Source: Fibrobacterota bacterium (GTDB lineage: Bacteria > Fibrobacterota > Fibrobacteria > UBA11236). Taken from it: 64,000 bases of DNA. A program made the position numbers and the translations under genes. Below are positions 9,242 to 58,292 of the stretch, piece by piece (within the stretch, counting starts at the first letter, position 1; every line of letters starts with the position of its first letter). The DNA is taken from assembly GCA_023249635.1 (NCBI GenBank), contig JAHFCH010000005.1, positions 1 to 64,000 on the forward strand, in the 5' to 3' direction. The notes under the pieces are model-generated. The model saw only the letters and a list, made by a program, of their open reading frames with translations. It was not told where the DNA came from and searched no databases.

Positions 9242-9242
9242 A

Positions 9243-9827: not shown

Positions 9828-9837
9828 GGCTTATCGC

Positions 9838-15512: not shown

Positions 15513-15522
15513 GCGCATCCCC

Positions 15523-16257
15523 TTACCAGGTACCGGTGAGGGTGGATTCGCCGTCCGCGCTTTGCGTCAGTACCGATGCGGCGATGGCGCCTTTTCCCAA
15601 GACGGTCCAGTTCCCGCCCGCCGGCAATTTGAGGCTTACGCTATGGCCGGAAGGGATGCCGGCCAGGGATAGCTTGCGCACCAGGTTGACCTTGCCGCCG
15701 GCGGCCGAGTACTCGGGCGTTTCCGTAACGCTTATGTTACCTCCGTCCGGCAGCACGAGGGAGAAATCCAGCCGCAAGGCATCGCCTTTCAAGGCGTAGC
15801 CCAGGTAAACCGGCTTCGCGTCCACGGCTGCGGCGCCTTTGGCCACGGTCCACGCCTTGTAACCGCGCGGTTGCTTTTTCCACTTCGTGTAATAGGTGTC
15901 GATATCGGCGGGCTTGGTCCAGCTCGCGAAATATTCCCCCACGTCTTCCTTGAAGTATTGCGTACCCGCCGCCGTGAACCAATGCGGGAAATGCGCGCTT
16001 TGATCGAACCAGCCGAAGTCGGCCATTTCCAGGGTGCCGCCCTGGGTTCCGCCGGCCCAGGCCTGGTATAGCTGGCCCTGGGGCAAATCGTAAAGGACCC
16101 AAAGCTTGGCATCCAACGCCACCTTGAGCTGGCGCGAGCGATCGGGGGTGATCACCTTTTCGACGAAGGGGTCATGGGGGCGGGCGGCCCACGTAACGGC
16201 CGTCAGGGCGAGGACGAGTGGAATGATGGGCATACGCATGCGATTGTTTCCTTTCAT
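15523..16257 (-). CDS. Secreted protein, companion domain of propeller dehydrogenases, cluster A
   Basis: A 244-residue exported protein (hydrophobic segment then TWAARPHDPFVEK). The segment RSRQLKVALDAKLWVLYDLP followed by GQLYQAWAGGTQGGTLE resembles a module usually fused to propeller dehydrogenase and cytochrome domains in PVC and Bacteroidota proteins, where it starts with a similar 'LRVALNKGLWVAYD' pattern. Here it is a separate gene directly upstream of the propeller gene (10 bases apart). I use ATG at 16257 with GGGGGA upstream; ATG at 16239 is an alternative. Function unknown; it may be a binding or accessory subunit. Confidence 0.65.
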   Translation of the reverse strand: MKGNNRMRMPIIPLVLALTAVTWAARPHDPFVEKVITPDRSRQLKVALDAKLWVLYDLPQGQLYQAWAGGTQGGTLEMADFGWFDQSAHFPHWFTAAGTQYFKEDVGEYFASWTKPADIDTYYTKWKKQPRGYKAWTVAKGAAAVDAKPVYLGYALKGDALRLDFSLVLPDGGNISVTETPEYSAAGGKVNLVRKLSLAGIPSGHSVSLKLPAGGNWTVLGKGAIAASVLTQSADGESTLTGTW

Positions 16258-16342
16258 GTTCCCCCCACACACAACAGGAATGCATCCGATACCACGGCGC
16301 CACCACGCGCCGTTGCGGAAGGCTTCCGGCCTCGACGCTACT

Positions 16343-18043: not shown

Positions 18044-18875
18044 GGGCGCCTCCCTCTTCGGGTTTCTTGGAGACGGGAAAAATCTGGAAGTTGACTTGGA
18101 TGACGCGCTTCGGGTCCGGGCAATTGCGCGCCAGCTCAAGCAGCTCGCGGCGGAAATTCTTGATCTTCTCCTCTACCATGGCATAGCCGTCCTCGGGCAG
18201 ACTCAACGTAAGCGCCGAGAGGCTGCGCTCGTCGCGGGGAAGCTTGTCCAAGGCCACTTTTGCCAAGTCCAGGGTCTCGATGATGAACTGGTTCACGGCC
18301 AGCGAACGGGTATCGTAGCCCGAAGTGATGACCGGATCGGATTTCTCGTAGGCGCCCGTCTCGTTGCGGCGGATAAGGCCCAGTTCCTCCAGGAGCTTGA
18401 TGGCCTTTTGCGCCTCGGCGGTGGAGATGGCCGGCTCCAGCATGCGCGAGAGTTCGCGGTAATCGTCCTTGAAGGGATGGAACGCCAGCACTTCGCGGAT
18501 GACGCTGTAGTACCACTTCTCGTAGAACGCGTATTGCGTCGAGTCCACCTGCTTCAGGTTCGACTTGGGGAACGCGATGATGCGTTCGAAGTAGCGCTTC
18601 TTTTCCGTGTGCCCTTTGCTCTGGCTGAACAGCACCAACAATTCGAAATAGTCCGCTTCATCCTTCTTAAGCGCCAAGAAGCGGACGAAGGACGCCACGG
18701 TATGCGGCGACATGTTGGTTTTGCCTTGCAGGATCTGGGCGAAGGTCCCTGTGGACTTGAACCCGATGGCCTGCGAGATATAGCGATGGGTGAACGCTTT
18801 CAGCGCCGCCCGTCTTGCTTCGTAATAATCACGGAGGTACTTGCGGTAGTCCGTATACTGGAAAAGGTCGACCAT
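18036..18875 (-). CDS. TIGR02147/DUF4423 family transcriptional regulator, cluster A
   Basis: A 279-residue cytoplasmic protein of the TIGR02147 family. It begins MVDLFQYTDYRKYLRDYYEA, then an HTH-like region (YISQAIGFKSTGTFAQILQG, NMSPHTVASFVRFLALKKDE) and the C-terminal DUF4423 part (FYEKWYYSVIREVLAFHPFK, AQKAIKLLEELGLIRRNETG, ending VNFQIFPVSKK). ATG at 18875 is chosen because the family motif starts there; a longer frame upstream has no family similarity. The lipoprotein gene overlaps its 3' end, so the two should be made in fixed ratio. Targets are unknown; local control of cluster A is inferred. Confidence 0.88.
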   Translation of the reverse strand: MVDLFQYTDYRKYLRDYYEARRAALKAFTHRYISQAIGFKSTGTFAQILQGKTNMSPHTVASFVRFLALKKDEADYFELLVLFSQSKGHTEKKRYFERIIAFPKSNLKQVDSTQYAFYEKWYYSVIREVLAFHPFKDDYRELSRMLEPAISTAEAQKAIKLLEELGLIRRNETGAYEKSDPVITSGYDTRSLAVNQFIIETLDLAKVALDKLPRDERSLSALTLSLPEDGYAMVEEKIKNFRRELLELARNCPDPKRVIQVNFQIFPVSKKPEEGGAHA

Positions 18876-24144: not shown

Positions 24145-24471
24145 ATGGCATATCGTAGCGGCGAAGTACTCGTCGACGGAATTCCGGCCGGGCGTATCTC
24201 CGAAACGGAGAATGGTTACCTCTTTGCGTATGCTAAAGCATACCTGGCCGGGGAGGATGCGCAGGCCGTCAGTCTCACCTTTCCCTTGCGTGGCGATCCC
24301 TATGAATCGAAAGTCCTATTCCCATTCTTCGATGGCCTGATCCCCGAAGGGTGGCTTTTGGATATCGCTGAAAAGACATGGAAGTTGAATACACGGGATC
24401 GGATGGGTTTATTGCTCGCATGCTGCGAGGATTGCATCGGCAACGTAAGCATCAAAGGCGATAAGAAGTAA
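24145..24471 (+). CDS. hipS: HipS-like protein (HipA N-subdomain 1 as a separate gene)
   Basis: A 108-residue protein equivalent to the first N-terminal subdomain of HipA: GEVLVDGIPAGRISETENGY, VSLTFPLRGDPYESK, then LFPFFDGLIPEGWLLDIAEK, with the conserved FF.GLLPEG-type motif. In the HipBST system of enteropathogenic E. coli this small protein, not HipB, neutralises the kinase. The stop overlaps the next start as TAATG, indicating coupled translation. Confidence 0.85.
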   Translation: MAYRSGEVLVDGIPAGRISETENGYLFAYAKAYLAGEDAQAVSLTFPLRGDPYESKVLFPFFDGLIPEGWLLDIAEKTWKLNTRDRMGLLLACCEDCIGNVSIKGDKK

Positions 24472-25430
24472 TGGGTCGCACGGCCGGACGTTGCCTTTAC
24501 TGCCGCGAATCCTGGACCGGGGAAGGGGCCTTCCACGAGAGCTGCAGCGCCAAATTCTTCGGCCACCGGCATGCTCCAACGATCGAGTATAAGCTTGACG
24601 ACATGGAGAAGCTGGCTACCTCCGTACTCCGGTCCCATTCCACGGTTCCGGGAGTGCAGTCCAAGATTTCCCTGGATTTGGAGAAGTCGCCGGGTGAAGG
24701 AAAGGCCGGACGACTTACTTTGGTCGGCCTGTGGGGCCGATTCATCCTCAAGCCGCCATCGCGGAAATACCCCCGGCTTCCCGAACTTGAGGACGCGACC
24801 ATGCATTTGGCCGCCGCGGCGGGATTGCCGGTCGTTCCCCACTGCCTGATACGGCTTGCCTCGGGGGAACTGGCGTACATTACGCGGCGGATCGATCGAA
24901 CGAAAACGGGCAAGCTGGCAATGGAGGATTTGTGCCAGGCCTCGGGGCGGCTTACGGAAGACAAGTATAAGGGATCGCTGGAAGCGACCGGTAGAACGAT
25001 CCGATCCTTTTCCAGCCAACCGGGTTTGGACGCGATTCTCTTTTTCGATCTGGCGCTATTCTGTTTCATGACGGGCAATGCCGACATGCACCTCAAGAAT
25101 TTTTCCCTCTGGCGCCCGGAGGGCGGCGAAACACAACTGGCTCCCGCTTATGATCTGCTCGCGACCAAACTCGTCATCCCGAAAGACGAGGAAGAGACCG
25201 CCCTGACCTTGAATGGAAAGAAGAAAAACCTGCGTAGAAAGGATTTCGATGCCCTCGCGGCATCCTTGCGCTTACCGGATAAGGCCCGGGAGAATTCCTA
25301 TACCCGTCTCATGGGAATGCGAAAAACCTGGGATGCGGATTTGGGGAAAAGCTTTCTGCCCGCACCGGTTCGGAAAAAATTCCAAACGTTGCTCGAGGAA
25401 CGGATCGGCCGCCTCAAATCCAAGGGATGA
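24471..25430 (+). CDS. hipT: HipT-type serine/threonine kinase toxin (HipA C-terminal part)
   Basis: A 319-residue HipA-like kinase without the first N-subdomain. The start has a zinc-knuckle pattern, Cys8-x2-Cys11-x10-His22-x2-Cys25. Kinase elements follow: VPGVQSKIS (59-67, counterpart of the HipA Gly/Ser loop), FILKPPS with ATP-binding Lys94, TGNADMHLKNFS with catalytic Asp205 and Asn210, and PAYDLL with metal-binding Asp228. All key residues are intact, so an active toxin is expected. HipA kinases phosphorylate aminoacyl-tRNA synthetases (HipA: GltX; HipT: TrpS); the target here is unknown. Confidence 0.9.
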   Translation: MGRTAGRCLYCRESWTGEGAFHESCSAKFFGHRHAPTIEYKLDDMEKLATSVLRSHSTVPGVQSKISLDLEKSPGEGKAGRLTLVGLWGRFILKPPSRKYPRLPELEDATMHLAAAAGLPVVPHCLIRLASGELAYITRRIDRTKTGKLAMEDLCQASGRLTEDKYKGSLEATGRTIRSFSSQPGLDAILFFDLALFCFMTGNADMHLKNFSLWRPEGGETQLAPAYDLLATKLVIPKDEEETALTLNGKKKNLRRKDFDALAASLRLPDKARENSYTRLMGMRKTWDADLGKSFLPAPVRKKFQTLLEERIGRLKSKG

Positions 25431-30600: not shown

Positions 30601-32310
30601 GACGACGTCGTACTGACCTCCGCGCTGCCCCTGGAGACCCTTGTCTCCCTGTCTGCCCGGGCCGCGGACGCGGCGACCCCGGATGACCGGCCCGCTTCCG
30701 AAGCTGTCCTGGCCCACCTCGCGCGCTTCTCCGCTGCTCCGTCGCCTGCCGATCCCGAAAGCGAACCGCCGCTCGCGCCGCTGATATCCCAATGGCTCCG
30801 GGCCTACGGTCCCGTAACCGGGGAGTTTCCCCGTCGCCTGTTCGGAAGGGCCTTCCCCCGCGTGGAAGAAGCCCTCTCCGAATTGGGCGAGGGGGATCGT
30901 TTGGTGGCCGATGTCCTGAGCGAAGACGCCACGGGCCCGGAAATCTGCGATGCCGCCAACCTGGAAACCCTGTTGCGTATCATGCGCCGCAGGGCCCGGC
31001 CGGAGTTCCGCGCTTTGGCCGCCGAGCGCCTGCCGCAATTCCTGGCCGCCTGGCAAGGACTCGCCAACCCTGCGCGGGATGCCGAAGGCTTGCAGGCCGC
31101 CCTGGAGAAACTCTTCGGGTATCCCGCCGCGGCCGCCGCATGGGAAACCGATATCCTGCCCGCCCGGGTGGCGCAATACCTTCCTTCCCGTCTCGACGAA
31201 GCCATGCGCGACACGGGCCTGCTCTGGTGCGGACGCGGCGATGAGCGCATCGCCTTCGCCTTCCCTGAGGATTTGGAACTGTTCCCTTTCCTTAATGAGG
31301 GAGCGGATGCGAAAGCAGATTTGAAAACGGATGCGAATGCGGGCACGCAACCCGCCTTGGGGCATGAGGCCGCTCTGGTCCTGAACCTGCTGGCGGCCGC
31401 GGCTCCGGGACGGGTGGATTTCCAGGCGCTGGCAGCCCGCTGCCCGCTGCCTTCGGACCGCCTCACGGCGGCGTTGTGGGAGCTAGCCTGGCGCGGACGG
31501 ATTACCAACGATACCTTCGCCGCCTTGCGCAAAGGCATCGAAACCGGTTTCCGACCGGCGGCCGCGCCGGATGCGAATGCGGGCCGCGGGGATCGCGAGC
31601 GTATGGGTTCGCGACGGCAGGGATTCCAACGTTGGAAGGCGGCGCGGCCCATGGCAGGGGCCTGGTCAATCTTGCCCACGGGGGAAGCGGATACCGATGC
31701 CCTGGAGCTGGAGGATCTCGCCCAGGACCGCGTGCGGCAATTACTCAGGCGCTATGGCGTGCTGTTCCGCGAGCTCCTTAACCACGAAGCCCCGGCCCTG
31801 CAATGGGCCGCCGTCTTCCGATCCCTGCGCCTGCTGGAACTCTCGGGCGAAGTGCTTTCCGGCCATTTCTTCGAGGGCATCCCCGGGTTGCAATTCCTCG
31901 CGCCCAACGCGCTGCGTATGCTGGAAAGCGGCCTACCCGATGGCGCGGTGGTTTGGATGTCGGCGACGGATCCGGCCTCGCCTTGCGCCCTGGGACTACA
32001 GCGCCTGCCTTACGATCTGCCGCCCCGCCTGGCCTCGACTTGGCTGGTATTCCATGGATCGGAACTGGTCGTTACCGCGCGCAGGTTGGGACGCGATCTG
32101 GCCATCCGCGTGCCTCCCCGGCATAAGTACCTCGCCGGTTACCTCGCGGCGTTGCGGACCCCGGTAGAGCGGGCGTTCCTTCCCGTGAAAGCCCTGGAAA
32201 CGGAAACCATCAACGGGGAGCCGGCTACGGAGAGCCCCTATCTGGAAGATTTGTTGGAGGCGGGTTTCGAAAAGGGATTCAAAACCCTGGGCCTCCGCAA
32301 ACGCTTCTAA
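27658..32310 (+). CDS. lhr: Lhr-type large ATP-dependent helicase
   Basis: A 1550-residue superfamily 2 helicase of full Lhr length (E. coli Lhr 1538). N-terminal core: Q-motif-like IPTDIQACAWPLIAEG, Walker A APTGSGKT (47-54), ILYVSPLKALNNDIQ, TTPESLN, DEVH box (about 170), ALSATVRPLE, then motifs IV-VI with VFANNRRMSERMARLL, ATNSLELGIDIGALDQVILV and KIGRAGHGVGQ. Winged helix and Lhr-core domains follow, and a long C-terminal region (about 900-1550) completes the protein. It acts in DNA repair or RNA/DNA unwinding. Its stop overlaps the convergent DUF1080 stop. Confidence 0.94.
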   Translation: MTTPADPLDLFHPLIAAWFRGKTGIPTDIQACAWPLIAEGRHVLLTAPTGSGKTLTAFLWALNRFATDAASAGSGTRILYVSPLKALNNDIQRNLMAPLEALRAEFAAAGSAFPEVRVLVRSGDTPASERRRMLRNPPEILITTPESLNLMLLTDAGRASLRTVETVILDEVHAVAGSKRGTHLITGIDRMVPLAGEFQRIALSATVRPLETVAAWIGGYILGETGYVPRPVSIAVSRAPKLYHVRVRYPSRAESGAFGTPPPEREGAAPGRIPGDNDVWTAMAKEIRDRLQGARSTLVFANNRRMSERMARLLNEGSDKPVAYAHHGSLSREIRSLVEERMKAGQLPAIVATNSLELGIDIGALDQVILVQTPFSIASALQKIGRAGHGVGQTSRALLFASHGKDLLDAATAVGCVLAGDLEETRVIEGPLDLLAQILVSLAASEAWTADRMFAFIRTSHPYRHLSRGQFDVVLEMLAGRFEASRVRELRPRVFIDAVDGRVTAAKGAVMLVGLSGGTIPDRGLYALRHANSRAKIGELDEEFVWERREGELFHLGSQSWRITRITANEMEVVPADRPAQMAPFWRADERDRGFHFSDRLGSLLERAERDLDDPAFAASLITDHGLETDGAEALVEFLRRQRAATNAPLPHRHHLLLEEAGESEGGEEAGEGVQIIVHAIWGGRLLRPWAYAMAQAFEASRGRPLEIITSDDCLLVRLPPDMEPSALLELVHPDNLEGLLRKRLEHTGYFAAHFRENAARALLLPRSTPRARVPLWLNRLRSRNLLQAVSAFPDFPVALETWRECLRDEFDLPNLKAMLAEVHAGTIRVSQARSSEPSPFADHLMWKKTNKWMYEGDRPAAGPGANADLLREIAFSAPLRPRIPRAVIREFEAKSLRLAPGYAPQGANELVEWVKERVLLPREECRELLGRMEIPPDAAVEFRSHAEARLVSVRLPGAQLAAVIAVETLPRLLTALGTVRDDVVLTSALPLETLVSLSARAADAATPDDRPASEAVLAHLARFSAAPSPADPESEPPLAPLISQWLRAYGPVTGEFPRRLFGRAFPRVEEALSELGEGDRLVADVLSEDATGPEICDAANLETLLRIMRRRARPEFRALAAERLPQFLAAWQGLANPARDAEGLQAALEKLFGYPAAAAAWETDILPARVAQYLPSRLDEAMRDTGLLWCGRGDERIAFAFPEDLELFPFLNEGADAKADLKTDANAGTQPALGHEAALVLNLLAAAAPGRVDFQALAARCPLPSDRLTAALWELAWRGRITNDTFAALRKGIETGFRPAAAPDANAGRGDRERMGSRRQGFQRWKAARPMAGAWSILPTGEADTDALELEDLAQDRVRQLLRRYGVLFRELLNHEAPALQWAAVFRSLRLLELSGEVLSGHFFEGIPGLQFLAPNALRMLESGLPDGAVVWMSATDPASPCALGLQRLPYDLPPRLASTWLVFHGSELVVTARRLGRDLAIRVPPRHKYLAGYLAALRTPVERAFLPVKALETETINGEPATESPYLEDLLEAGFEKGFKTLGLRKRF

Positions 32311-32318
32311 TCGATTAG
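32307..32318. other. Palindrome at overlapping convergent stop codons
   Basis: CTAATCGATTAG contains the last base of the lhr coding frame with its TAA and, on the other strand, the TAG of the DUF1080 gene. The two genes overlap by four bases and no hairpin terminator separates them. Confidence 0.6.
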
Positions 32319-33374
32319 CACCTTGACCGTGGCGGAAGTCCCGGCCTGGAAGCGGCGCAATAGGTACATACCTGACCGCGGTGCGCGCAATTCCCCCGCC
32401 GTCGTAGCGGCGATGAAACCCCCGTCAAGGGTGCGAAGTTCGTAACGCGCCGAATTCTCCCCGGAATGACCTGCCGGGTTAGCCGCCGCGTTACCCCCCG
32501 CGTCTCCCACGTGAATGCGGTTCCCTGCCGACCGAACCCAGACGATGGGCTGCATCCCCGCGCCCTTGGGAACAGGGGCGCCAACGGCGACCGGAGGCGG
32601 AAAGGGGTAATTCGCGACCTTGATATTCCGCACGTACAGTTGCCCCGGATATGCCGTCTGTAATCCGATATACCCGGTCTTGCGATAGGGGTTGGCGTGA
32701 TCGCATTGCGCCTCGGTAGCCGCCTCCACCGAAAGGCAGGGCGCATTCGCCCACTTATGCGCCACCATGCTGGCCTTGAACTCTTCGCTGGCCAGGCTGT
32801 ATTTCAGCACCAGCGCCCCGTTGTGCCAGTGGTAGACGCTGTCCTTGTAAAGCCGGACGCGGATGTTGTTCCATTCCCCGGTGGCGAAATGCTTGTAGTT
32901 GATGAGGTTGGGGGGATAGATATCGTAGGCGGCCCCGGGCGCGTTCCAGTTGCCCGCCACGGGCGTTCCGTCGTAGATGGGATACTCCACCGCGTTGTTG
33001 TAGATCGCATCCGTCAGCAGGCTGGCGCGGTAGTAGAGTCCCGCGTTGTCGCTGATACGGTAGTCGAACTTCAACTCGAAATCGGCGTACTGTTTGATGG
33101 AGCGGATATCCTGGGTGGCGTTATTGTCCCAGAAATAATCCTTCCCCGCAGGCGCTTCGATGTTGGCCGGCAAGGTGGTGACGTTCGCGCCGTTCTTCTG
33201 GTAGGCCACGAAATTGTCGCGCACGCTTTGCATGGTCCCATCGAAGAGCAATGCGAATCCCTGGGCTTTCTCCTCCACCGTAAGCGTATTCACGGCCTGC
33301 CCGTAGGCGGCCCCGGGCCCGAAGGCCATGGCCTGCAAGGCCAGCAATGAGCAATACCAATATTTACCGGTCAT
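32307..33374 (-). CDS. Secreted DUF1080 protein with C-terminal sorting-like domain, cluster B
   Basis: A 355-residue secreted protein. Signal peptide 1-25 (ending GAAYGQA), then a DUF1080 domain: GFALLFDGTMQSVRDNFVAY, YADFELKFDYRISDNAGLYY, NNAVEYPIYDG, HFATGEWNNIRVRLYKDSVY, and TGYIGLQTAYPGQLYVRNIK, matching the family's closing strand (IxLQxHGxxVxFRNIKI). The C-terminal 60 residues (RYELRTLDGGFIAATTAGEL, APRSGMYLLRRFQAG) look like a type IX-like sorting tail. GGGAGG precedes ATG 33374. DUF1080 includes 3-keto-glycoside hydrolases/lyases; the catalytic residues cannot be confirmed by eye. Confidence 0.82.
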   Translation of the reverse strand: MTGKYWYCSLLALQAMAFGPGAAYGQAVNTLTVEEKAQGFALLFDGTMQSVRDNFVAYQKNGANVTTLPANIEAPAGKDYFWDNNATQDIRSIKQYADFELKFDYRISDNAGLYYRASLLTDAIYNNAVEYPIYDGTPVAGNWNAPGAAYDIYPPNLINYKHFATGEWNNIRVRLYKDSVYHWHNGALVLKYSLASEEFKASMVAHKWANAPCLSVEAATEAQCDHANPYRKTGYIGLQTAYPGQLYVRNIKVANYPFPPPVAVGAPVPKGAGMQPIVWVRSAGNRIHVGDAGGNAAANPAGHSGENSARYELRTLDGGFIAATTAGELRAPRSGMYLLRRFQAGTSATVKVLID

Positions 33375-33407
33375 ACCATTCCTCCCGTTCGTGACTTCCG
33401 AACCCAC

Positions 33408-34925
33408 TCAAATTCCCCATCCCAATTGCGCCACCCAGTACCAATCGGATTTCCGCACCGTCACCTCGTTGGGATTCAGCTGCGGACCGTAATACGAAGT
33501 CGCGTCGGGAATGCGTAAATGATCGCTGGCGGCCTGCAGGCTCAGGGTGGTGCCCGCGCCCAGTCGTTTGCGCAGCAGCAGCGAATACTTGAAGTTGTCC
33601 TTGTCGGCCAGGTCGTAATAGCTATGCGACGAAGTCAGGCGATCGCTGGCATCGGGCACGAAGGGCACGTTGTTCCCGTCCGAGCCGATGGGCCAGGTAT
33701 TGTTGAGCCAGGGCGAATCGTACCATTCGGCCTGCACGCTGAAGAGATCAAGCCAACCGAAAGCGGGGATGTTGATGCCCGCCATGATCGGCACGCGGCG
33801 CATGCGATCGGTATAGAACACGGGCCGGTTCTCGACGCCTAGCAGCGCGACCTCGGCGAAGATCTTAAAATCCGACGGGGACATCCCGAGTTCCGGGAGC
33901 AGCGGCTTGGGATCGAAGGTGGCCCGGGCCATCAGCAAGGTTCCGGCCGCGCTGTAATAATGCAGCTGTGGCCGCTCCGCCGGGGAAAGCTTATCGAGTC
34001 CTTCCACCAGCGCGGCCAAGGAGTCCTGCTCGTGGGCCATGGCCGCGAAACGGGCGGAATCGGCGCCGGTCGCCCCGGCCAGGCGCCCGCGCCAATACGT
34101 ACCGGCATTGGCATAGAAGGAGTAATTGGCCGAGCGATCCACGCCACCGCTGGTGAACCAGGCATTGGCCTTGTTCTCGCGTGAGGTACGTTCGGGATAA
34201 ACCGGCAGCAAACGTTTGCAATCCACTCCCGCTCCCACATCGAATACGCCTTGCGGGGATCGATAGGCGGCGACGGCGGCCAGGGATCCGTCGTATAAAG
34301 GCGCCAGACCGGTCTCGGTGAGCAGCAGCAAATCCGCGGAGAATCCGCCCATGCGGAAAGACGCGCGCGCGCCTTGCAGGTACGCCGCGGCGCTGTTCGC
34401 CAAGGCATAGCCGCCCGTCATCACGACACCCGGATAAGGGGTGCTGCGGAACAGGTATTCTCCCAGGTTGGATGCCTCGGGATTGTACTTGTAAGGGAAC
34501 AGGCCGATGGCCAAAGTGACCGGCGGGCGTTCGGGATCGCCGAAGGCGTAAGCCGCTTCGCTTATGCTGGGTCCCACGAAAAACGCCTTGCGTTGCGATC
34601 CGGAGAAACCGCCGTTGACCACTTCCGGTTTGCGGAACTGGAAGATACCGCCCAGGCCCCCGGTAACCCGGAAGCGACTGTCCCAGGTGAGGGTGCGGGT
34701 GACGGAGGCGCCGAAATGATCGATCCATTCCGGGCGCAACGGCTCCAGCACGCCGCCGCCGACCACGCCGCTGCGGATCATGCCCGCTTCCTGGAAGGCG
34801 GACAGGGCCAGGGTATCATGGATAGGACGCTCGGCTCCGGCCGGATCGGAATGCGCCGGCGGCACGGACGCCGCCAGCGCGCATGCGAGCACCAGCACCG
34901 GGGACATTGGGCCGGACGCGCGCAT
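33408..34925 (-). CDS. Outer-membrane protein paralogue 3 (cluster B)
   Basis: A 505-residue exported protein, signal peptide ending PPAHSDP. It shares a chain of motifs with the next two genes: EWIDHFGA, GLGGIFQFRKPEV, GSQRKAFFVGPS, FPYKYNPEASNLGEYLFRS, APLYDGSLAA, SAAGTLLMARATFDPKPL, FYTDRMRRVPIMAGINIPAF and a C-terminal KSDWYWVAQLGW. Alternating strands and repeated aromatic girdle residues suggest a beta-barrel. I use ATG at 34925, one base after the upstream stop, instead of a start inside the upstream gene. The family is not one I recognise by name. Confidence 0.75.
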   Translation of the reverse strand: MRASGPMSPVLVLACALAASVPPAHSDPAGAERPIHDTLALSAFQEAGMIRSGVVGGGVLEPLRPEWIDHFGASVTRTLTWDSRFRVTGGLGGIFQFRKPEVVNGGFSGSQRKAFFVGPSISEAAYAFGDPERPPVTLAIGLFPYKYNPEASNLGEYLFRSTPYPGVVMTGGYALANSAAAYLQGARASFRMGGFSADLLLLTETGLAPLYDGSLAAVAAYRSPQGVFDVGAGVDCKRLLPVYPERTSRENKANAWFTSGGVDRSANYSFYANAGTYWRGRLAGATGADSARFAAMAHEQDSLAALVEGLDKLSPAERPQLHYYSAAGTLLMARATFDPKPLLPELGMSPSDFKIFAEVALLGVENRPVFYTDRMRRVPIMAGINIPAFGWLDLFSVQAEWYDSPWLNNTWPIGSDGNNVPFVPDASDRLTSSHSYYDLADKDNFKYSLLLRKRLGAGTTLSLQAASDHLRIPDATSYYGPQLNPNEVTVRKSDWYWVAQLGWGI

Positions 34926-34926
34926 G

Positions 34927-36615
34927 TCAGAGTTCCCAGCTCGCATTGGCCATCCAATACCAGTCACGGGAAGCCCCCAGGATCTGATTGGGTTCCAGGC
35001 GGGAGCCGAAGAACCAATCCGTGCCTACGGTACGCAGGTGATCCCGCGCGAATTGCGCGGAGACCAGGAACCCGGGCAGCACGTGTTTTTGCAGCAGCAA
35101 CGACCAGCTGAAATCGTCCTTGCCGGACGCATCGTAATAAGCATCCCGGGAAAATCCCGCATGGGTTCCCGCTGGGAAATACGGGGTAGCTCGACCGTTA
35201 CCTAGGGAGACGAAATCGTTGGCGAAAGGGGAATGGAACCATTCGCATTGGAAGGCGGCCAGATCCAGCCAACGGAAGGCGGGAAGATTGAAACCCAGCA
35301 TGAAGGGCATGCGGTCGGAACGGCGCGTGTAGTAGACCGGATAGTTTTCCACCCCCAGCAGCGCGATTTCACCGTACAGCTTCAGGTCTTCCGGACCCAG
35401 GGCCGCCGAAGGGAAAAAACGTTTGGGATCGAAGGCGGCCCGGGCCATCAACAGGGTGCCTGCGGGGGAGAAATATTCCAGACCGGGTTTGGAGTAGGCC
35501 ACGCGGTTACCGGCGCCGTCGGTGACGGAATCGGTCGTGGTCCAATAGGCGATGGAATCGGCGACGGCCCCGGCGACATCGGCATCGACCCGGTGGCGGC
35601 GGGCCGCGGCCAGGGGACCCAGGGCGGCCGGCACATCGGCGGCGTAGCGGGCCGCCGAGTCGAGGTTGGCCGCGGTGGGATCGGCCAGGAAAGCCAGGGC
35701 GGGATGCGACGGGTTGACGGCGGCCAGATCGGCTTTGGCGACCGCGACCCCTTCCGTAACACGCAAGTTACCAAAGGCCTGCTTCTGCGTGTACTCTTCC
35801 GGAGTGCCCGGGTACCAGGTTCCGGCCTTTCGGAAATAGGCATTGGCCAGGGTATGGGGCGCCGTGCGCCCGGGTCTGACCTGGATCAGCCGCTTTTGGT
35901 TCACGCCCGCGCCCAGCACCAGCGCGCCGTCCCCCGCCGTGTAGGAGGCCAGGGCGGCCAGGGACCAATCATACAAGGGGGGCACATTGGTTTCGGTATA
36001 CAGCAGGGCTTCCGCGCGGAAATCGCCCCGGGACCAGACCGCCTGGAACCCTTGCAGCATGGCTCCCGAACTGCCGATGGCGGAAAGCCCGCCGGTGGTG
36101 AGGAAGGTCGGATAGGGACCGGAGCGCAGCAGGTATTCGCCCAGGTTATGCGCATCGGGATTGTATTTGAAAGGGAACATCCCCATGGCCAGGGAGAAGG
36201 TAGGCCGTTCCGGATCCCCCCAGGCATAGGTCCCCTTGGCGATGGAAGGCCCCAGGAAGAAGGCCTTGGACTGGCTGCCGCCGAACTCGGCCTGGGCCAC
36301 CTCGGGCTTGGGGAATTCGAACACGCCGCCCAATCCCACCGCGATATGCAGGCGCTCGGCGACCACGGCTTCACGCAGGTAATACGCCCCGAGATGATCG
36401 ATCCATTCATCCCGGAAGGGCTCGTTCACGTCCTTCCAGGCGCCGCTTTGCAAGCGCCCGAATTCCTGCATGCCGCCTACCACGGCCGGCAGCCAACGCA
36501 CCGCGGGCGCTTCGTTCGCCCACGCGGGCTGCGGGCAGAGCGCGCCTCCCGCGCCTATCACACCCATGGCCACCATCGCAGCCGACAACGCGTATGCCAT
36601 CCGGGCCGCGTTCAT
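34927..36615 (-). CDS. Outer-membrane protein paralogue 2 (cluster B)
   Basis: A 562-residue exported protein, paralogous to its neighbours: EWIDHLGAYYLREA, GLGGVFEFPKPEV, GGSQSKAFFLGPS, FPFKYNPDAHNLGEYLLRS, PPLYDWSLAALASY, SPAGTLLMARAAFDPKRF, LKLYGEIALLGVENYPVYYT, RMPFMLGFNLPAFRWLD, SRDWYWMANASWEL. It is the longest copy because of an Ala/Asp-rich insertion (about residues 285-370) before the SPAGT motif. ATG at 36615 overlaps the upstream stop (ATGA). A substrate channel or surface-layer role is only inferred. Confidence 0.75.
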   Translation of the reverse strand: MNAARMAYALSAAMVAMGVIGAGGALCPQPAWANEAPAVRWLPAVVGGMQEFGRLQSGAWKDVNEPFRDEWIDHLGAYYLREAVVAERLHIAVGLGGVFEFPKPEVAQAEFGGSQSKAFFLGPSIAKGTYAWGDPERPTFSLAMGMFPFKYNPDAHNLGEYLLRSGPYPTFLTTGGLSAIGSSGAMLQGFQAVWSRGDFRAEALLYTETNVPPLYDWSLAALASYTAGDGALVLGAGVNQKRLIQVRPGRTAPHTLANAYFRKAGTWYPGTPEEYTQKQAFGNLRVTEGVAVAKADLAAVNPSHPALAFLADPTAANLDSAARYAADVPAALGPLAAARRHRVDADVAGAVADSIAYWTTTDSVTDGAGNRVAYSKPGLEYFSPAGTLLMARAAFDPKRFFPSAALGPEDLKLYGEIALLGVENYPVYYTRRSDRMPFMLGFNLPAFRWLDLAAFQCEWFHSPFANDFVSLGNGRATPYFPAGTHAGFSRDAYYDASGKDDFSWSLLLQKHVLPGFLVSAQFARDHLRTVGTDWFFGSRLEPNQILGASRDWYWMANASWEL

Positions 36616-38105
36616 ATCGCGATCCCGATCCGGCACATCCAATACCAATCCTTGCTGGTGGAAAGGTTTTCGTCCGCTTCCAGGGCCGGGCCGAACCAGG
36701 TATTCAGGCTCACCAGGCGGAGATGATCCCGGGCCGCCTGGGCGCTCACGGTGATGCCCGGCAGGATGTTCTTTTCCAGCAGTACGGACCAGGACCAGTC
36801 ATCCAATTTCGCGGCATCGTAATAGTTGTCGCTGGAATAAGCCGCGTCCCCGCCCCGGGGCTGGAAGGGTTGCGGAAGTCCCACGGTCGCCACGCGCTCG
36901 GTGCTGTTGAGGAAGGGGGAACGATAAAGTTCTCCCTGTACGGCAACCCTATCGAGCAAGCGGAAGGCCGGAAGGTTGAATCCGAACATCATGGGGATGC
37001 GATCCGCCATGCGCGGGTAAAATACCGGATAATCCTTGACTCCCAACAACGCAAGTTCGCCGTAGAGTTTCAAGTCCTGCGGTCCCAGGGCCGCGGAGGA
37101 GAACCAGGGTTTGGGATCGAGGGACGCCCGTGCCATCAGGATGATTCCCGCTGCGCTGTAATACTGGTAATCGGGATGGGCATAGGCCACCGCGGGCCCG
37201 CCGGTAGGGCCGGGAACGGTGTCGGTCGTGGTCCAATACAGAACCGAATCGAGGGCAGCCTTCCAATACGCCGAATCGGCGCTGCGATGGCGGGAAGCGG
37301 CGAACTCGAGCCGGCTACGGTAATAATTGGGATTGCCGGTGTACCAGGTCCCGGCCTTCTTGAAATAGGCGTTGTTCGCTTGGCGCGGATCGGTGCGGCT
37401 GGGGCGCACGGGCACGATGCGCTTGGCGTTCACGCCTCCGCCGATCTCGAGGGAACCGTCCAGGGTCTTGTAGGTTGCCAAGGCCGCCAGCGACAAATCG
37501 TACAGAGGCGGAAATCCGGTTTCGGTCAGGGCCAACAGGGTAACGTTTGTGCTACCTAGGCGGAATTCGGCCTTGGCTCCCTGCAGGTAGGCGTCGGCCG
37601 TTCCGATGATGGCATAGCCTCCGGTTTGCAGGTAATTGGGATAGGGATTGGCGCGGAACAGGTACTCGCCCAGGTTGGCGGCATCCGGATTGTATTTGAA
37701 AGCGAACATGCCCGCCGTGGCGGTGAACCCGGGGTTTTCCGGCTCGCCGCCGCGCCAGGTCAGGGTGGCCCGGGAAGGCCCTACGAAGAAATTGCGGTAC
37801 TGGCTGCCGCCCCAACCCGCCGAGATGACCTCGGGCTTCTGGTACTGGAACACTCCGCCCAGGCCCACTTCCATCTCGAGCCGCTCCCCCACGGAGGCCC
37901 TTTCCAGGAAGAAGGCGCCGAAATGATCCACCCATTCGTCATGGAAGGCGCCGGCCGCCGAGAACCTTCCGCTTTGCAGCATACCGCATTCCTGGAACAA
38001 ACCCAGCGATGGGGCGTCGTAGCGGACGATCGGGTTTTCACCCGCTGTCGCTCCCATGCACTGCAGCGCCAGCGGCGCCGCGTATACCCAAGCCTTGGAC
38101 ATCAT
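36612..38105 (-). CDS. Outer-membrane protein paralogue 1 (cluster B)
   Basis: A 497-residue exported protein with a signal peptide ending GATAGE. Shared motifs: EWVDHFGAFFLERA, GLGGVFQYQKPEV, GGSQYRNFFVGPS, FAFKYNPDAANLGEYLFRA, PPLYDLSLAALATY, SAAGIILMARASLDPKPW, LKLYGELALLGVKDYPVFYP, RIPMMFGFNLPAFRLLD, ARDHLRLVS, SKDWYWMCRIG. It is the first of three head-to-tail copies, 11 bases after the HEAT-repeat gene. Divergence among copies is substantial, so the triplication is old or under diversifying pressure. Confidence 0.75.
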   Translation of the reverse strand: MMSKAWVYAAPLALQCMGATAGENPIVRYDAPSLGLFQECGMLQSGRFSAAGAFHDEWVDHFGAFFLERASVGERLEMEVGLGGVFQYQKPEVISAGWGGSQYRNFFVGPSRATLTWRGGEPENPGFTATAGMFAFKYNPDAANLGEYLFRANPYPNYLQTGGYAIIGTADAYLQGAKAEFRLGSTNVTLLALTETGFPPLYDLSLAALATYKTLDGSLEIGGGVNAKRIVPVRPSRTDPRQANNAYFKKAGTWYTGNPNYYRSRLEFAASRHRSADSAYWKAALDSVLYWTTTDTVPGPTGGPAVAYAHPDYQYYSAAGIILMARASLDPKPWFSSAALGPQDLKLYGELALLGVKDYPVFYPRMADRIPMMFGFNLPAFRLLDRVAVQGELYRSPFLNSTERVATVGLPQPFQPRGGDAAYSSDNYYDAAKLDDWSWSVLLEKNILPGITVSAQAARDHLRLVSLNTWFGPALEADENLSTSKDWYWMCRIGIAI

Positions 38106-38116
38106 CGGGGTTCCGT

Positions 38117-39229
38117 TCAGGGATTCACGAAGGCGGCGCTACGCGCGCCTCCCGCCCGTTCCGCCACTATCCGATAGATTCCGGAGGGTAATGCTTTCGC
38201 GTCCCAGCCGATCGCGGCCGAGCCATCGCCGCGCCATTCCCGCCGCGTCCTACCGCCCATGTCGGCTATGCGCACGCGCCAGGGTCCGGCTCCCGGCCAA
38301 TCCAGGCGCAAGCGCCCGCCCACCCGGGAAAAGACGAACCTGCCCGACGGAGGCGCAGTTCCCCCTCCTGGCACCGCCGTGGGCAGGCTCTTGATGAAGG
38401 CCAGGGTCGAATCGGCGTGCAGGACCACGTTGGGGCGTACCGCCGTAACCGCCGCGCTACGTACGGCGTTGGCGACTTCGGTGGCTTCCGCCTTGAGCCC
38501 GCGCTCGGCCAGTCGCTCCGCGAAGAGCAGGTTCAAGGCCATGGCCTGCATCGATTCCAGGCGATCGGACGCGTTCATGGCCTGGGCGATGGCAGTCTTG
38601 CCCAAGGGACTACCGATATTCGCCAGGCTTCGCAAGGCGATAGCGCGGATATTGCGATCGGTAGAGGTCGCCGACGGCGTCAGGGACGCCAACGTCGATT
38701 CGGATCCGTCGCGTAAGGATCCCGCCGCCCGCATAAGTGTGGGACGGCATTTGTCCTGGGAAGAGGGCAAAGCCGCGCGGACGGCGGGAATAATCTTGTC
38801 GGGGCCTTCGGTCGAGGCGATCCCGAGCAGGGATTGGGCCGCAGGCTCGCACAGGTTGGCATCGGTCAGGTAGGCGGCAAGCGGATCCACCGACGCCGAC
38901 TTGCCGCAGAAACGCAACTCTTCGATCAGGAATGCCTTGATCTCCCAATCCACCGGCTTCGCCAGGCCGGCGAGCAATGCCGTCTCCTGCGCTTGCCGTT
39001 CGCTCTCCGATCCGGGGCGAAAAGAATAATTCGTAAGCCGGCGGACCTCGAGTCGCGCGGCCGCATCGTTGCCGCCTCCGGGTTTCTTGATCTGCGCGAT
39101 GGCATCGGCGGCGGTCTGGGCGCCCGCGGATACCGCAGAGAGAGCGGAGACCGCGGCCAGCAGCAGTATCGCTGCCGGCCACGGGAGCCTTCCGGCGCGC
39201 GTCACTGGGAGTGAACTTACGCGTGCCAT
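38117..39229 (-). CDS. Secreted HEAT-repeat protein with sorting-like C-terminus
   Basis: A 370-residue exported protein (signal peptide ending SAVSAGAQTA). The middle is a row of paired helices of the HEAT type (AFLIEELRFCGKSASVDPLA, RAIALRSLANIGSPLGKTAI, SLLGIASTEGPDKIIPAVRA). After a Pro/Gly hinge the last 80 residues form a beta domain typical of type IX-like sorting tails: FVFSRVGGRLRLDWPG, VRIADMGGRTRREW, ALPSGIYRIVAERAGG. ATG at 39229 shares bases with the stop of the oxidoreductase gene. Probably a secreted scaffold or adaptor; no enzyme motif seen. Confidence 0.75.
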   Translation of the reverse strand: MARVSSLPVTRAGRLPWPAAILLLAAVSALSAVSAGAQTAADAIAQIKKPGGGNDAAARLEVRRLTNYSFRPGSESERQAQETALLAGLAKPVDWEIKAFLIEELRFCGKSASVDPLAAYLTDANLCEPAAQSLLGIASTEGPDKIIPAVRAALPSSQDKCRPTLMRAAGSLRDGSESTLASLTPSATSTDRNIRAIALRSLANIGSPLGKTAIAQAMNASDRLESMQAMALNLLFAERLAERGLKAEATEVANAVRSAAVTAVRPNVVLHADSTLAFIKSLPTAVPGGGTAPPSGRFVFSRVGGRLRLDWPGAGPWRVRIADMGGRTRREWRGDGSAAIGWDAKALPSGIYRIVAERAGGARSAAFVNP

Positions 39230-40524
39230 CAGGCGCCTCCATCGGGAAGGGCCCAAGGGGCCCGCATCGGTTGGAAGATCATGCGGTTGGCTTCCTCGTC
39301 ACCGACGAAGACCAACTTGTCGGGATCGAAGCGGAGCTTGCGCCCCAGCCGCACCGCGATGCTGCTGAGGTTCACCAAGGTGCAGGAGCGGAAGCCGTTC
39401 CGTTCATTGAGGCCGAAGCTCTTACGTGTACGCACCGCCTCGGAAAAATCGTCGAGTTGCACGGGCGGGTTCGGCAAGGCATCCACCTTGGCCTTGAGCC
39501 CCGTGATGTCCGATTGGAAATTGGCGCGCACCTGGCCCTTGCTTCCCTGCATCAAGGCGGTATCCTTGCCTACCCCGTCGAGGATGATCTTGGTGCCGTC
39601 GGCATAGGCCAAGGTCACTTTACGCCACGGGATTACCGCGTCCGCTGGCTGGGGATCGGAGTCGGGAGTGATCTCCACCGGGCTGGTGTCGTCCTTGCCC
39701 AAGATGTATTGGAAGGCATCCAGGTAATGCTGCCCCATATCGCCCAGTCCGCCGGCATCATAATCCCAATAGCCGCGGAAACTCTGGTGCACGCGGGCCG
39801 CGTTGTAGGGCTTCCAGGGCGCCGGGCCCAACCATAAATCGTAGTCGAGTCCCGCGGGCGGGGTTTGCGGAGCCAGGTTTTGCTGGCCCATCCACAACGG
39901 AAGTTTCCAATCGAAACCCGTGCCCGCTCCCACCGTTACCGTCAAGGGTCCGCCCAGCACATCTCCGATCACGAGCTTGCGTAAATCGCGCGCGGGTACG
40001 CCCGCGCCGTAGAACGCGTCGCCGAACAAGGCGCTGGCGCCGGTAAAGCGGAACCAGGTATTCAAACGGAAGATGGTGCCGTTGCGGCGTACCGCTTCCA
40101 TCACCTTGCGGCCTTCGCCGATGGTACGGGTCATGGGCTTCTCGCACCAGATATCCCGTCCCGCCTCGGCGGCAGCCAGGGCCATCAGCCCATGCCAATG
40201 CGGCGGAGTGGCGATGTGGATGATGTTGGCGTCGGTCTTGGCAAGCAGATCGCGGAAGTCCTTGTACCCTGTCACGCCGGCCCTGCCTGACAGGGCCTGC
40301 GCCAGATGCGCCTCGTCCACGTCGCAAACCGCCACCAGTCGCGAAGGCGAGGAGTTGTTCATGCCCGGCTCGGTGCCGGCCACATGGCCCATGCCTTTGG
40401 AGCCGGTTCCGATCACGGCGCGCGTCAATTGATCGCTGGGGGCTTGGCCCCGCGCCCAGGAAGGCAAGATGGTGAAGGCCGCAGCCGCCTGCGCGGTCCG
40501 CGTCAGCATCTGCCTGCGGTTCAT
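39229..40524 (-). CDS. Tat-exported Gfo/Idh/MocA family oxidoreductase
   Basis: A 431-residue NAD(P)-dependent oxidoreductase. It starts MNRRQMLTRTAQAAAAF, a twin-arginine signal, so it is exported folded with bound cofactor. The Rossmann motif VIGTGSKGMGH lies at about 38-48, followed by VAVCDVDEAHLAQA, IIHIATPPHWHGLMALAAAE and the catalytic CEKPMTRT (Glu-Lys-Pro). The C-terminal half has GGLGDMGQHYLDAFQYILG, with the conserved His in the active site region. Exported relatives oxidise sugar or glycoside hydroxyls, including C3. ATG at 40524 is chosen because it starts the Tat motif. It heads the six-gene run to 32307. Confidence 0.9.
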   Translation of the reverse strand: MNRRQMLTRTAQAAAAFTILPSWARGQAPSDQLTRAVIGTGSKGMGHVAGTEPGMNNSSPSRLVAVCDVDEAHLAQALSGRAGVTGYKDFRDLLAKTDANIIHIATPPHWHGLMALAAAEAGRDIWCEKPMTRTIGEGRKVMEAVRRNGTIFRLNTWFRFTGASALFGDAFYGAGVPARDLRKLVIGDVLGGPLTVTVGAGTGFDWKLPLWMGQQNLAPQTPPAGLDYDLWLGPAPWKPYNAARVHQSFRGYWDYDAGGLGDMGQHYLDAFQYILGKDDTSPVEITPDSDPQPADAVIPWRKVTLAYADGTKIILDGVGKDTALMQGSKGQVRANFQSDITGLKAKVDALPNPPVQLDDFSEAVRTRKSFGLNERNGFRSCTLVNLSSIAVRLGRKLRFDPDKLVFVGDEEANRMIFQPMRAPWALPDGGA

Positions 40525-40639
40525 TTTCCCCTGGAACATCGGCTCCCCCGAACCCGGCTGCGGGGCCGCTAATGGCCCGCACCCGTGGGAGAAAATCTAG
40601 GCCGGGGGAGTAGGCGCGGGGGTGGAGGGAGGGGAGAAA

Positions 40640-40676: not shown

Positions 40677-42395
40677 TCAGGGAACGCGGAGGCTTACCAC
40701 CTCGGATCCGGGCGCCTGATTGGCGTGCGCGAACCGGATCCAATCGGCCCCGCGCGCGACATCGGAAACGGTCGCATCGTCCACGCATCCGTTCAGATGC
40801 GTATTGGCCTGCAGGGCCGGGGCCCATTGGCGCAGGGTGCCGCCGCCCAGGATCCAGAATCCGGAAATATCCTCGGCATGGGGCGCGTCGGCGTTCTTCG
40901 CCGCCGCTTCGCCATCCAGGAACAGCGCCATGCCCGCGACCGGATCCTGCGTCGCGATCATATGGTGCCAGGCCCCGTCGGCGTAGCCCGGCTTGGATAC
41001 CGCCAGACGTTCGAATTCACCGCGGCCCTCGGGAGGGTCGGCGATGTACACGCCGAAATGCACCGAACCGTCGGGATCGATCCACACATGGCGATCGTAA
41101 GGTCCTGTATTGCGCCCCAGGTAGCTGTCCTCGAAGCCGATTAGCTTTCCCGGCCCCGTGGCCAGGAACCACATGGAGAGGGTGAAGGTCTGGGGAGCGC
41201 GCACCGAATCGGTGGAAGAGAGCAGGCCCGTCAGCCCGTCGAATTGCGCGCAGCCGCCCAATGGCGAGCCATGCAGGGAAGCGGCGTCCGCCGTGGCGCC
41301 CGCCAAGGGGTTCTTCGCCGACGAAGCATCGGCCCAACGCAGCCCCTGCGGCATCGCGTCGAAATGCCAGGCGCCCCGCCAGCCCTGCGCAGCCGGGAAA
41401 ACGGAGGCCCCCGCTCCCATGCCGGGGGCCGCCGCTTTGCCCCAAAGCAAGGAGATGCTTTGGCTATCATCCCCCGCCCTCAAGCTATCCACGTGCACCC
41501 AGATGAGCGCGTCCTTCGCCTTGGCGTCCCAACGCGCGATCTCGAACGCCAGATGGCGCCCGGCAGCATCCGCGAAGCGGAGATCGCTCCCGCCTGCCGC
41601 CGCCGAATCAAAGGGGAAGGTCGTCGCGTCCAACCGCACCAATACGGGAACGTCCGCGATGCCGACCGCCAGATTCGCGCCCAAGGGGCTGATGCGCATG
41701 ACCACGGCACGGGAGCGCGGCCAAGCCGCGTAATCCTCCGACCCGAATGCGTCCAGCACCAGCTCGCCCCCGTCTCCGCTCTCGCCGGAACGCACGTCCA
41801 CATCGCGTAGCTGGACGGTTCCCAAGGCGGGATCTCCGGACAAGGCCTGCAGGACATACCGGCCCGCGGGCAGATCGGCGAACTTGAAGCGGGTCGAATC
41901 GGGAGCCAGGTACAGAAGCCGATCGAGCCCGCCGATGCGGAGGAATACGGAACCCTGGGAAGCGCGACCGCGACGGATGGTCCCCGTTAGCCCGCCCACG
42001 GGCTTAAGCACGGCGTCCGGCGCCTTGGCCAAACCGGCTTGCGCCCTTACGAACACCAGGGCCGATTGCCCGTTATCCCCGCGTATCTCTACGGAATAGG
42101 AGTCGACCGGCAGCGGTGCGATGCGATAACTCCCGTCGTTGGCGAGAGCGGTTTCGCTGCCGGGCCCGTTGGCCGCCGCCTTCTCCGAAGTATCCCGGAA
42201 CCATGAGGCAGGGCGGACCACGACCTTGCCATGGGCAACGGGCGCGCCTTCAGGGGTCCGGGCCACGCCTTTGAGCCCCACGGTTTCCGAGCCCGGGCCC
42301 TGCACGCCGGGAATATCGCCTTCCTCGCGGAAGCATGCCGTGGGTAACAGCGCGGTTACCAAGACCGCGGCCAGCAGCAGGCGGGGGGCCTTCAT
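40677..42395 (-). CDS. LamG/DUF2341 surface lipoprotein coupled to TIGR02147 regulator, cluster B
   Basis: A 572-residue lipoprotein, lipobox LLPTAC near residue 21. The order of parts repeats the cluster A lipoprotein: GPGSET motif, carboxypeptidase-regulatory domain (VGLKGVARTPEGAPVAHGKV), second GPGSET, RIAPLPVDSYSVEIRGDNGQ, then DUF2341 (ADVPVLVRLDATTFPF, FADAAGRHLAFEIARWDAKA, ISLLWG) and LamG (WRGAWHFDAMPQG, FTLSMWFLATGPG, AWHHMIATQDPVAGMALFLD). The start overlaps the regulator stop by four bases. A 150-base gap with a small hairpin separates it from the oxidoreductase gene. Confidence 0.85.
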   Translation of the reverse strand: MKAPRLLLAAVLVTALLPTACFREEGDIPGVQGPGSETVGLKGVARTPEGAPVAHGKVVVRPASWFRDTSEKAAANGPGSETALANDGSYRIAPLPVDSYSVEIRGDNGQSALVFVRAQAGLAKAPDAVLKPVGGLTGTIRRGRASQGSVFLRIGGLDRLLYLAPDSTRFKFADLPAGRYVLQALSGDPALGTVQLRDVDVRSGESGDGGELVLDAFGSEDYAAWPRSRAVVMRISPLGANLAVGIADVPVLVRLDATTFPFDSAAAGGSDLRFADAAGRHLAFEIARWDAKAKDALIWVHVDSLRAGDDSQSISLLWGKAAAPGMGAGASVFPAAQGWRGAWHFDAMPQGLRWADASSAKNPLAGATADAASLHGSPLGGCAQFDGLTGLLSSTDSVRAPQTFTLSMWFLATGPGKLIGFEDSYLGRNTGPYDRHVWIDPDGSVHFGVYIADPPEGRGEFERLAVSKPGYADGAWHHMIATQDPVAGMALFLDGEAAAKNADAPHAEDISGFWILGGGTLRQWAPALQANTHLNGCVDDATVSDVARGADWIRFAHANQAPGSEVVSLRVP

Positions 42396-43273
42396 GCATT
42401 TTCTCCAGCGCCTAGCGAACCAGCGTCCGCCGCGTTGCGCTCCTGCCGTTTTTCCGTGGGCTTGGTCAAGGGGAATACCTGGAAGTTGACCTGGTATACG
42501 GTGTCTTCCTGGGCATCCGCTTCGGCTATCTTGAGCAGCTTACGCCTGAACCCGTTCAGCTCTTCGGCGATGGCCTGGAAGCCCTTGTCCGAAAGGCTGA
42601 AGGTAAGCGTGGAGATGCTGCGCGATCCCCGGGGAAAGCGATCGATGGATTCGCCCGCCAGCGCCAGGGTCTGCAATTGGAAATTGTGGATGGCGGTGGC
42701 ATTGGCGTCATAGCCCGTGCTGCTGCTCACCGCATCGGCGCGTACGTAGCGGCCCTGGGAATCCCGCGTGATCATTCCCAGGCGCTGGAGCAAAGCCACG
42801 GCCTGCTTGGCTTCCGCCGGCTTGATCGCAGGCGATACGCGTTTCGCCAATGCATCGAAGTCGCCGCGGAAAGGCTCGAACCAGAGCAATTCCCGGATGG
42901 CCGTGTAGTACCACTTCTCGTAGAATTCGAAGCTCTCCGCCCCGACTATTTTCACGCGTGAGCTGCGGAAGGCCATCAGGCGTTCGAAGCCCTGCTTACG
43001 CTCTTCATGGTTCTTGGCTTGGTTGTACAGCACCAGCGCTTCGAAGAAATCCACTTCCTTGCGCTTGAGCTTGAGAAAGGCCGCGAAGCGGGCGGCCATG
43101 GACAGGGAGATGTTGCTCCGGCCTTTCAGGATCTGGCTGAAAAAACTGGCGGATTTGAAGCCGACCTTCTGGGCGATGAAGCGGCAGGAATAGGCGGGAT
43201 TGCGGGCCTTGTTCTCCTGATAGGTATCCTTCAGGAATTCCCGATAATCCATGTAGTCGAATACGTTCGCCAT
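42392..43273 (-). CDS. TIGR02147/DUF4423 family transcriptional regulator, cluster B
   Basis: A 293-residue paralogue of the cluster A regulator: MANVFDYMDYREFLKDTYQE, FIAQKVGFKSASFFSQILKG, NISLSMAARFAAFLKLKRKE, FYEKWYYTAIRELLWFEPFR, AKQAVALLQRLGMITRDSQG and the family ending YQVNFQVFPLTKPTEK. Same length and spacing of motifs as the other copy. A 17-base palindrome lies 68 bases upstream of its ATG. The lipoprotein start overlaps its stop (ATGA), so the pair is translationally coupled as in cluster A. Confidence 0.9.
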   Translation of the reverse strand: MANVFDYMDYREFLKDTYQENKARNPAYSCRFIAQKVGFKSASFFSQILKGRSNISLSMAARFAAFLKLKRKEVDFFEALVLYNQAKNHEERKQGFERLMAFRSSRVKIVGAESFEFYEKWYYTAIRELLWFEPFRGDFDALAKRVSPAIKPAEAKQAVALLQRLGMITRDSQGRYVRADAVSSSTGYDANATAIHNFQLQTLALAGESIDRFPRGSRSISTLTFSLSDKGFQAIAEELNGFRRKLLKIAEADAQEDTVYQVNFQVFPLTKPTEKRQERNAADAGSLGAGENA

Positions 43274-58270: not shown

Positions 58271-58292
58271 TGGGACCCCGCTTTTCCGCTTT

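Follow-up and report, generated by a model that had tools for sequence, protein, structure and literature searches.

Cleaving glycosides oxidatively, through 3-keto intermediates, has recently been established as an alternative to the use of ordinary glycosidases. BT2158 of Bacteroides thetaiotaomicron is a periplasmic Gfo/Idh glycoside 3-dehydrogenase (PMC11300592), and the DUF1080 proteins BT2157 of the same bacterium and CCNA_01705 of Caulobacter act in 3-keto pathways (PMC9007349). In Caulobacter, periplasmic C3 oxidation preceding the DUF1080 step is achieved by a dehydrogenase of another class, the membrane-bound three-part LacABC (PMC9007349). A locus encoding a Gfo/Idh and a DUF1080 protein together with putative outer-membrane proteins (OMPs) is found in the 64,000-nucleotide stretch of Fibrobacterota bacterium DNA analysed here, hereafter the window (contig JAHFCH010000005.1, positions 1 to 64,000). 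It is a minus-strand operon of six genes (40539-32307) whose neighbours abut or overlap with almost no gaps, listed here in order of transcription with reference to twin-arginine translocation (Tat) and type IX secretion system (T9SS) signals:

39229..40539, minus strand: Tat-signalled Gfo/Idh/MocA oxidoreductase (PF01408 and PF19051; EKP and GDMGQH motifs kept)
38117..39256, minus strand: exported HEAT-repeat protein with a T9SS-like tail at its C-terminus; its counterpart in other phyla is the homologous HEAT part of the gene following Gfo/Idh
36612..38105, minus strand: OMP-family protein 1, no Pfam/PDB match
34927..36648, minus strand: OMP-family protein 2, likely Met start near 36615, no Pfam/PDB match
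33408..34967, minus strand: OMP-family protein 3, no Pfam/PDB match
32307..33407, minus strand: exported protein of the DUF1080 (3-keto-disaccharide hydrolase) family; its C-terminal beta domain is similar to a T9SS tail, and TAYPG stands in place of the conserved DHG

The run of six closely spaced or overlapping genes from Gfo/Idh to DUF1080, which an earlier note on this DNA had proposed to be an extracytoplasmic 3-keto-glycoside locus, is present in full, and export of both enzymes is supported. The gene set, with its suggested chemistry outside the cytoplasm, was unfamiliar to the same note; its novelty in this respect is not supported, as extracytoplasmic 3-keto chemistry and enzyme pairs of this kind are already known from BT2158 (PMC11300592) and from BT2157 and CCNA_01705 (PMC9007349). 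The window locus shares with the BT2157/BT2158 pathway an exported Gfo/Idh protein, in the place of the glycoside 3-dehydrogenase, and a DUF1080 protein in that of the eliminase/hydratase, but its Gfo/Idh protein is of another family, its DUF1080 protein lacks the histidine of the DHG motif, and it adds the HEAT protein and three OMPs. No LacABC-type dehydrogenase is found at the locus, and the Caulobacter system is without an OMP array. What appears new, within the literature searched, is the cassette of OMP arrays with DUF1080 or ThuA proteins and its hybrid with the Gfo/Idh-HEAT pair.

The Gfo/Idh protein is assigned to PF19051 (GFO_IDH_MocA_C2) by its profile match (E=8e-109, next to E=2e-17 for PF01408), its EKP and GDMGxH motifs and a Tat-like signal, MNRRQMLTRTAQAAAAF. 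Its closest PDB sequences are the dehydrogenases 8tdf (E=5e-21) and 8tdh (E=2e-19), in agreement with its proposed role as an oxidoreductase. Its score to NF058561, the profile of the BT_2158 glycoside 3-dehydrogenase, is 118.7 bits, whereas the curated cut-off for equivalogs is 750. Homologues were sought in 84,980 genomes, and 80 loci were retained, whose proteins share 52-59% identity with that of the window and which belong mainly to Bacteroidota, but also to Hydrogenedentota, Verrucomicrobiota, Planctomycetota, Lentisphaerota, Aminicenantes and others. The gene directly downstream codes for a HEAT plus DUF1080 protein in 59/80 loci, for HEAT alone in 10/80 and for DUF1080 alone in 3/80, some contigs stopping too early to tell; a HEAT gene follows Gfo/Idh in 69/80 loci, mostly fused to two DUF1080 domains according to Pfam. 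Tat-like signals are present in 80/81 proteins of the set, EKP in 81/81 and GDM..H in 78/81, and the two fused DUF1080 domains keep the HG motif in 58/60 and 55/60 cases. Judged from homology and gene order, Gfo/Idh-HEAT-DUF1080 is a conserved set across phyla, which backs the linkage of the two enzymes claimed previously.

Loci L135-L214, from Bacteroidota and several other phyla, have Gfo/Idh followed by a HEAT fusion with two DUF1080 domains of about 1,140 amino acids, for which no description was found in the literature searched. Their Gfo/Idh and HEAT parts are homologous to those of the window, but in them DUF1080 is fused to HEAT and retains HG, whereas the window DUF1080 protein is separate, native to its lineage and encoded after the three OMPs. 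The window HEAT protein matches HEAT_2 with E=4e-5, under the Pfam cut-off, yet is homologous to true HEAT proteins. Its T9SS-like tail and its homology to the HEAT portion of the HEAT-DUF1080 fusions assign it to the Gfo/Idh protein and not to the OMPs, along with which the earlier note had named it as a scaffold between the two enzymes.

The remainder of the operon has another history. Orthologous OMP triplets at G000:C94, G159:C95, G158:C4, G156:C27, G160:C54, G163:C8 and G154:C281 span the genus, family and order, with a DUF1080 gene immediately upstream in 6/7 of them; in the exception, G154:C281, the contig begins at the triplet. None has a Gfo/Idh gene of PF19051 type beside it. The expected conservation is therefore seen for the two enzymes outside the phylum, where 72/80 loci associate Gfo/Idh with HEAT and/or DUF1080, but not in the closer relatives, which keep the OMP triplet and DUF1080 without this Gfo/Idh. 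In G156, G160 and G163 the triplet cassette adjoins F7, a relative of DUF7133-like dehydrogenases whose profile matches that of GSDH as a homologue with a probability of 99%. The DUF1080 tree groups the window protein with those of the native OMP triplets (SH-like support 99), apart from the fused domains that accompany Gfo/Idh elsewhere. On these sequence comparisons the three OMPs and DUF1080 are a cassette native to the lineage. PF19051 is found in 1/168 genomes of the phylum, the source genome alone and there in one protein, so the lineage does not natively have the Gfo/Idh-HEAT pair; the Gfo/Idh gene was probably acquired from another phylum. With a native DUF1080 and a foreign Gfo/Idh-HEAT pair, the locus is a hybrid. 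In the tree the window Gfo/Idh protein forms a long branch that falls outside the clade of Bacteroidota and has a weak affinity to Lentisphaerota, and a simple Bacteroidota donor is accordingly not supported.

The three OMP paralogues (43-52% identity to the first) have no Pfam or NCBIfam match. Their family counts about 45 genes in 25 clusters of the source genome, whose assembly is 6.75 Mb, and has matches in 30/168 genomes of the phylum (E up to 1e-8), with about 25-30 in each of five relatives. Among 33 members searched against Pfam the sole match is a spurious Connexin43 (E=0.015), with no family of PorP/SprF type, and the 33-member profile has no PDB match up to E=10. TonB receptor domains of the SusC type are found by Pfam neither in the window OMPs nor in family members. 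Some of the 72 members inspected have signal-like N termini, none has an internal transmembrane helix, and the C-terminus of the family ends with a hydrophobic residue (I/F/L) after an aromatic strand, features that together suggest an outer-membrane location. The AlphaFold2 (AF2) model of an OMP from an alignment of three rows (the window paralogues only) has a pLDDT of 42, too poor for a fold search.

Adjacency of OMP and DUF1080 genes exceeds chance. Counting from the coordinates of genome-search matches, on which all the genome-wide figures rest, 14/53 DUF1080 genes of the source genome lie at most 2.5 kb from an OMP gene against 1.5 expected (P ~2e-10), the distance and tail cut-offs being set by hand and the random placement ignoring operon structure. 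Five relatives show the same bias (10/34, 9/32, 3/17, 6/11 and 6/13, against 0.3-0.8 expected). Of the 25 OMP clusters, another seven or eight adjoin a gene for a protein of the ThuA family (OMP-ThuA linkage 7-8/33, 0.9 expected); the clusters concerned in G000 include C19, C38, C165, C279, C308, C319 and C340, and most of these ThuA proteins have T9SS-like tails. ThuA has been tied to 3-keto derivatives via thuAB (Ampomah et al. 2013, as cited in PMC10433430 and PMC4765114). DUF1080 is also found at most 2.5 kb from GSDH in 10/52 cases, with 3 expected. GSDH (PF07995) has about 67 genes in the genome, four of them clustered at window positions 53759-60132.

Eleven of the 25 OMP clusters adjoin a DUF1080 gene and 10 more adjoin a gene for another protein with a T9SS-like tail. 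Such a tail is carried by 12/15 OMP-adjacent DUF1080 proteins compared to 8/40 elsewhere (Fisher P 7e-5), a background rate drawn from loci picked near OMP/DUF1080 genes. The T9SS component SprA is present in the genome. A local tail profile recognises the HEAT protein (E=2e-6) and, weakly, the window DUF1080 protein (E=0.02); TIGR04183 matches neither of them. A clear tail is also found by the local profile in the protein encoded at window positions 61700-63397 (E=4e-8).

Membership of the window DUF1080 protein in PF06439 is firm (E=3.5e-20; 73.3 bits, curated cut-off 26.8). Its AF2 model (pLDDT 70) matches best the structures of DUF1080 proteins (E 1e-11 to 1e-15), BT2157 included (3osd, 8rr2, 9fbe), and also CBM66 (E ~1e-5). 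In the alignment, the C-terminal DHG of BT2157 and of the six orthologous cassettes is replaced by TAYPG, while the surround of the BT2157 pocket is largely retained (NxG, E of EY, YD, GEWN, HxN). The catalytic residues of the two enzymes, whose loss the earlier note had named as grounds for abandoning its proposal, are thus kept in Gfo/Idh (EKP, GDMGxH) and missing in part from DUF1080. This loss is not rare: the histidine is absent from about half of the DUF1080 domains of the genome, and other members of the clade (L063, L109 and L115) lack it too. The H275N variant of the B. theta lyase is reported to be hydration-deficient (PMC13273386). From the residue count (chain H250 plus about 25), H275 would be the histidine of DHG, which we infer to be the hydration residue.

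For the operon we privilege, as an evenly balanced hypothesis, a hybrid module of extracytoplasmic 3-keto-glycoside chemistry, with Gfo/Idh-HEAT placed in front of the native OMP/DUF1080 cassette. Its base would be the three OMPs and the exported DUF1080 protein, one of the many OMP copies found beside T9SS-tailed DUF1080 or ThuA proteins. Gfo/Idh, a putative glycoside 3-dehydrogenase, would have replaced or joined the usual GSDH-like enzyme and taken, with HEAT, the role of the GSDH/DUF7133-like dehydrogenases of several sister loci. At the outer membrane, the DUF1080/OMP part would bind glycosides or let them in; the periplasmic Gfo/Idh protein would then oxidise them at C3, and a DUF1080 protein would cleave the 3-keto-glycoside by elimination. 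Another of the about 50 DUF1080 proteins of the genome would then hydrate the released 2-hydroxy-3-keto-glucal, a step assigned elsewhere because the local protein lacks the histidine presumed necessary for hydration. Several points weigh against this reading. Chief among them, the compartments may differ: Gfo/Idh is predicted to be periplasmic from its Tat signal, and HEAT and perhaps DUF1080 to be at the surface from their T9SS-like tails. With a score of 119 bits against 750 for the characterised BT_2158 family, the substrate and the oxidised carbon of Gfo/Idh are putative assignments. The DUF1080 protein departs from the BT2157-type eliminase/hydratase by its missing histidine, and its role may be limited to sugar binding. 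No oxidoreductase adjoins the closest native cassette (C94) or those of some relatives. The initial proposal of an extracytoplasmic 3-keto-glycoside locus is thus partly supported: export, the Gfo/Idh motifs and the linkage among homologues remain; its novelty and the placement of HEAT do not, and the maintenance of both enzymes in homologous loci and of the catalytic residues holds in part.

The OMPs could instead be dedicated shuttles or anchors for T9SS cargo, as described for PorP/SprF (PMC9143113, PMC12618676), DUF1080 and ThuA being simply surface cargo and Gfo/Idh a separate periplasmic enzyme that is co-transcribed. As the main alternative for these proteins, it is a tentative possibility that would account for the T9SS-tailed or DUF1080 neighbour at 21/25 OMP clusters, for the preference of the tail for OMP-adjacent DUF1080 proteins and for SprA, and the PorP/SprF systems likewise have several OMP-type genes, each beside a gene for T9SS-tailed cargo. 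However, no OMP member has a credible Pfam match, the window-family proteins (about 480 amino acids) are larger and form arrays, and two to six tandem OMPs per cargo exceed what one anchor needs. The tail type is probably also another, the tails matching TIGR04183, which we take to be type A, while PorP/SprF presumably serve type B. In a further alternative, which we regard as doubtful though not far-fetched, the window DUF1080 protein is a non-catalytic glycan-binding surface protein with a CBM66-like jelly roll that feeds OMP porins as SusD does SusC, with no 3-keto chemistry of its own. The loss of DHG, shared with L063, L109 and L115, and the CBM66 fold match would fit this role, but the BT2157 surround is mostly kept and DUF1080 folds, including characterised enzymes, match far better. 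The SusC/SusD loci resemble that of the window in combining an outer-membrane protein with a surface glycan protein in genome-wide repeats, but the window locus has neither a TonB-dependent receptor nor a SusD family match.

An insertion of Gfo/Idh-HEAT as a passenger, functionally unconnected to the OMP/DUF1080 genes, is improbable. It would explain the single PF19051 genome in the phylum and the sister cassettes without Gfo/Idh, but not the common strand, the near-zero spacing, the matched GC content at third codon positions across Gfo/Idh and its operon neighbours (0.76-0.80) or the HEAT and/or DUF1080 genes that follow its homologues in 72/80 loci. An origin of Gfo/Idh from contamination or misassembly was rejected on the same strand, spacing and composition, and from two flanking genes typical of the genome that lie upstream of the operon:

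40677..42395, minus strand: DUF2341 and LamG-type lipoprotein, which recurs beside DUF1080 loci
42392..43273, minus strand: TIGR02147 (Fsuc_second) family protein, overlapping the lipoprotein gene

TIGR02147 has 84 matches across the source genome, an abundance that points to Fibrobacterota, and was dropped as a specific marker of the locus.

The hybrid module may be one instance of a wider arrangement. It is conceivable, though speculative, that the lineage runs an undescribed cell-surface sugar-utilisation system composed of unnamed OMP arrays, each with a T9SS-exported DUF1080 or ThuA protein and often with a GSDH-like or, here, a Gfo/Idh dehydrogenase, which would be SusCD-like but operate by oxidative glycoside cleavage. 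If so, 3-keto cleavage can build surface utilisation systems, in a lineage apparently outside Bacteroidota, and its dehydrogenase is exchangeable between GSDH-like and Gfo/Idh types. The OMP family, with about 25-45 genes per genome, is a concrete candidate with a testable role.

A second DUF1080 locus of parallel layout is found at window positions 12679-18875. It comprises TIGR02147, a DUF2341/LamG lipoprotein, a 244-amino-acid protein from a three-member family, a GSDH-like/DUF7133-like relative and a DUF1080 protein with AEG instead of DHG. Gfo/Idh proteins of cytoplasmic type are encoded in OMP/DUF1080 loci of relatives (L080 21-1070, L081 2085-3161 and 7223-8554, L082 6103-7176, L074 11951-13339). 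Two of the relatives' loci also have a Nuc_H_symport-type transporter, which would fit import of the sugar product and its subsequent metabolism. PADLOC reveals no link to defence at the six-gene locus. Elsewhere in the window, positions 3440-11211 and 19211-21385 carry genes resembling those that assemble type IV pili or type II secretion systems, one of them for a T2SSE ATPase (E=8e-132), and a HipA_C protein with small upstream ORFs (24145-25430) could form a HipAB-type toxin-antitoxin module.

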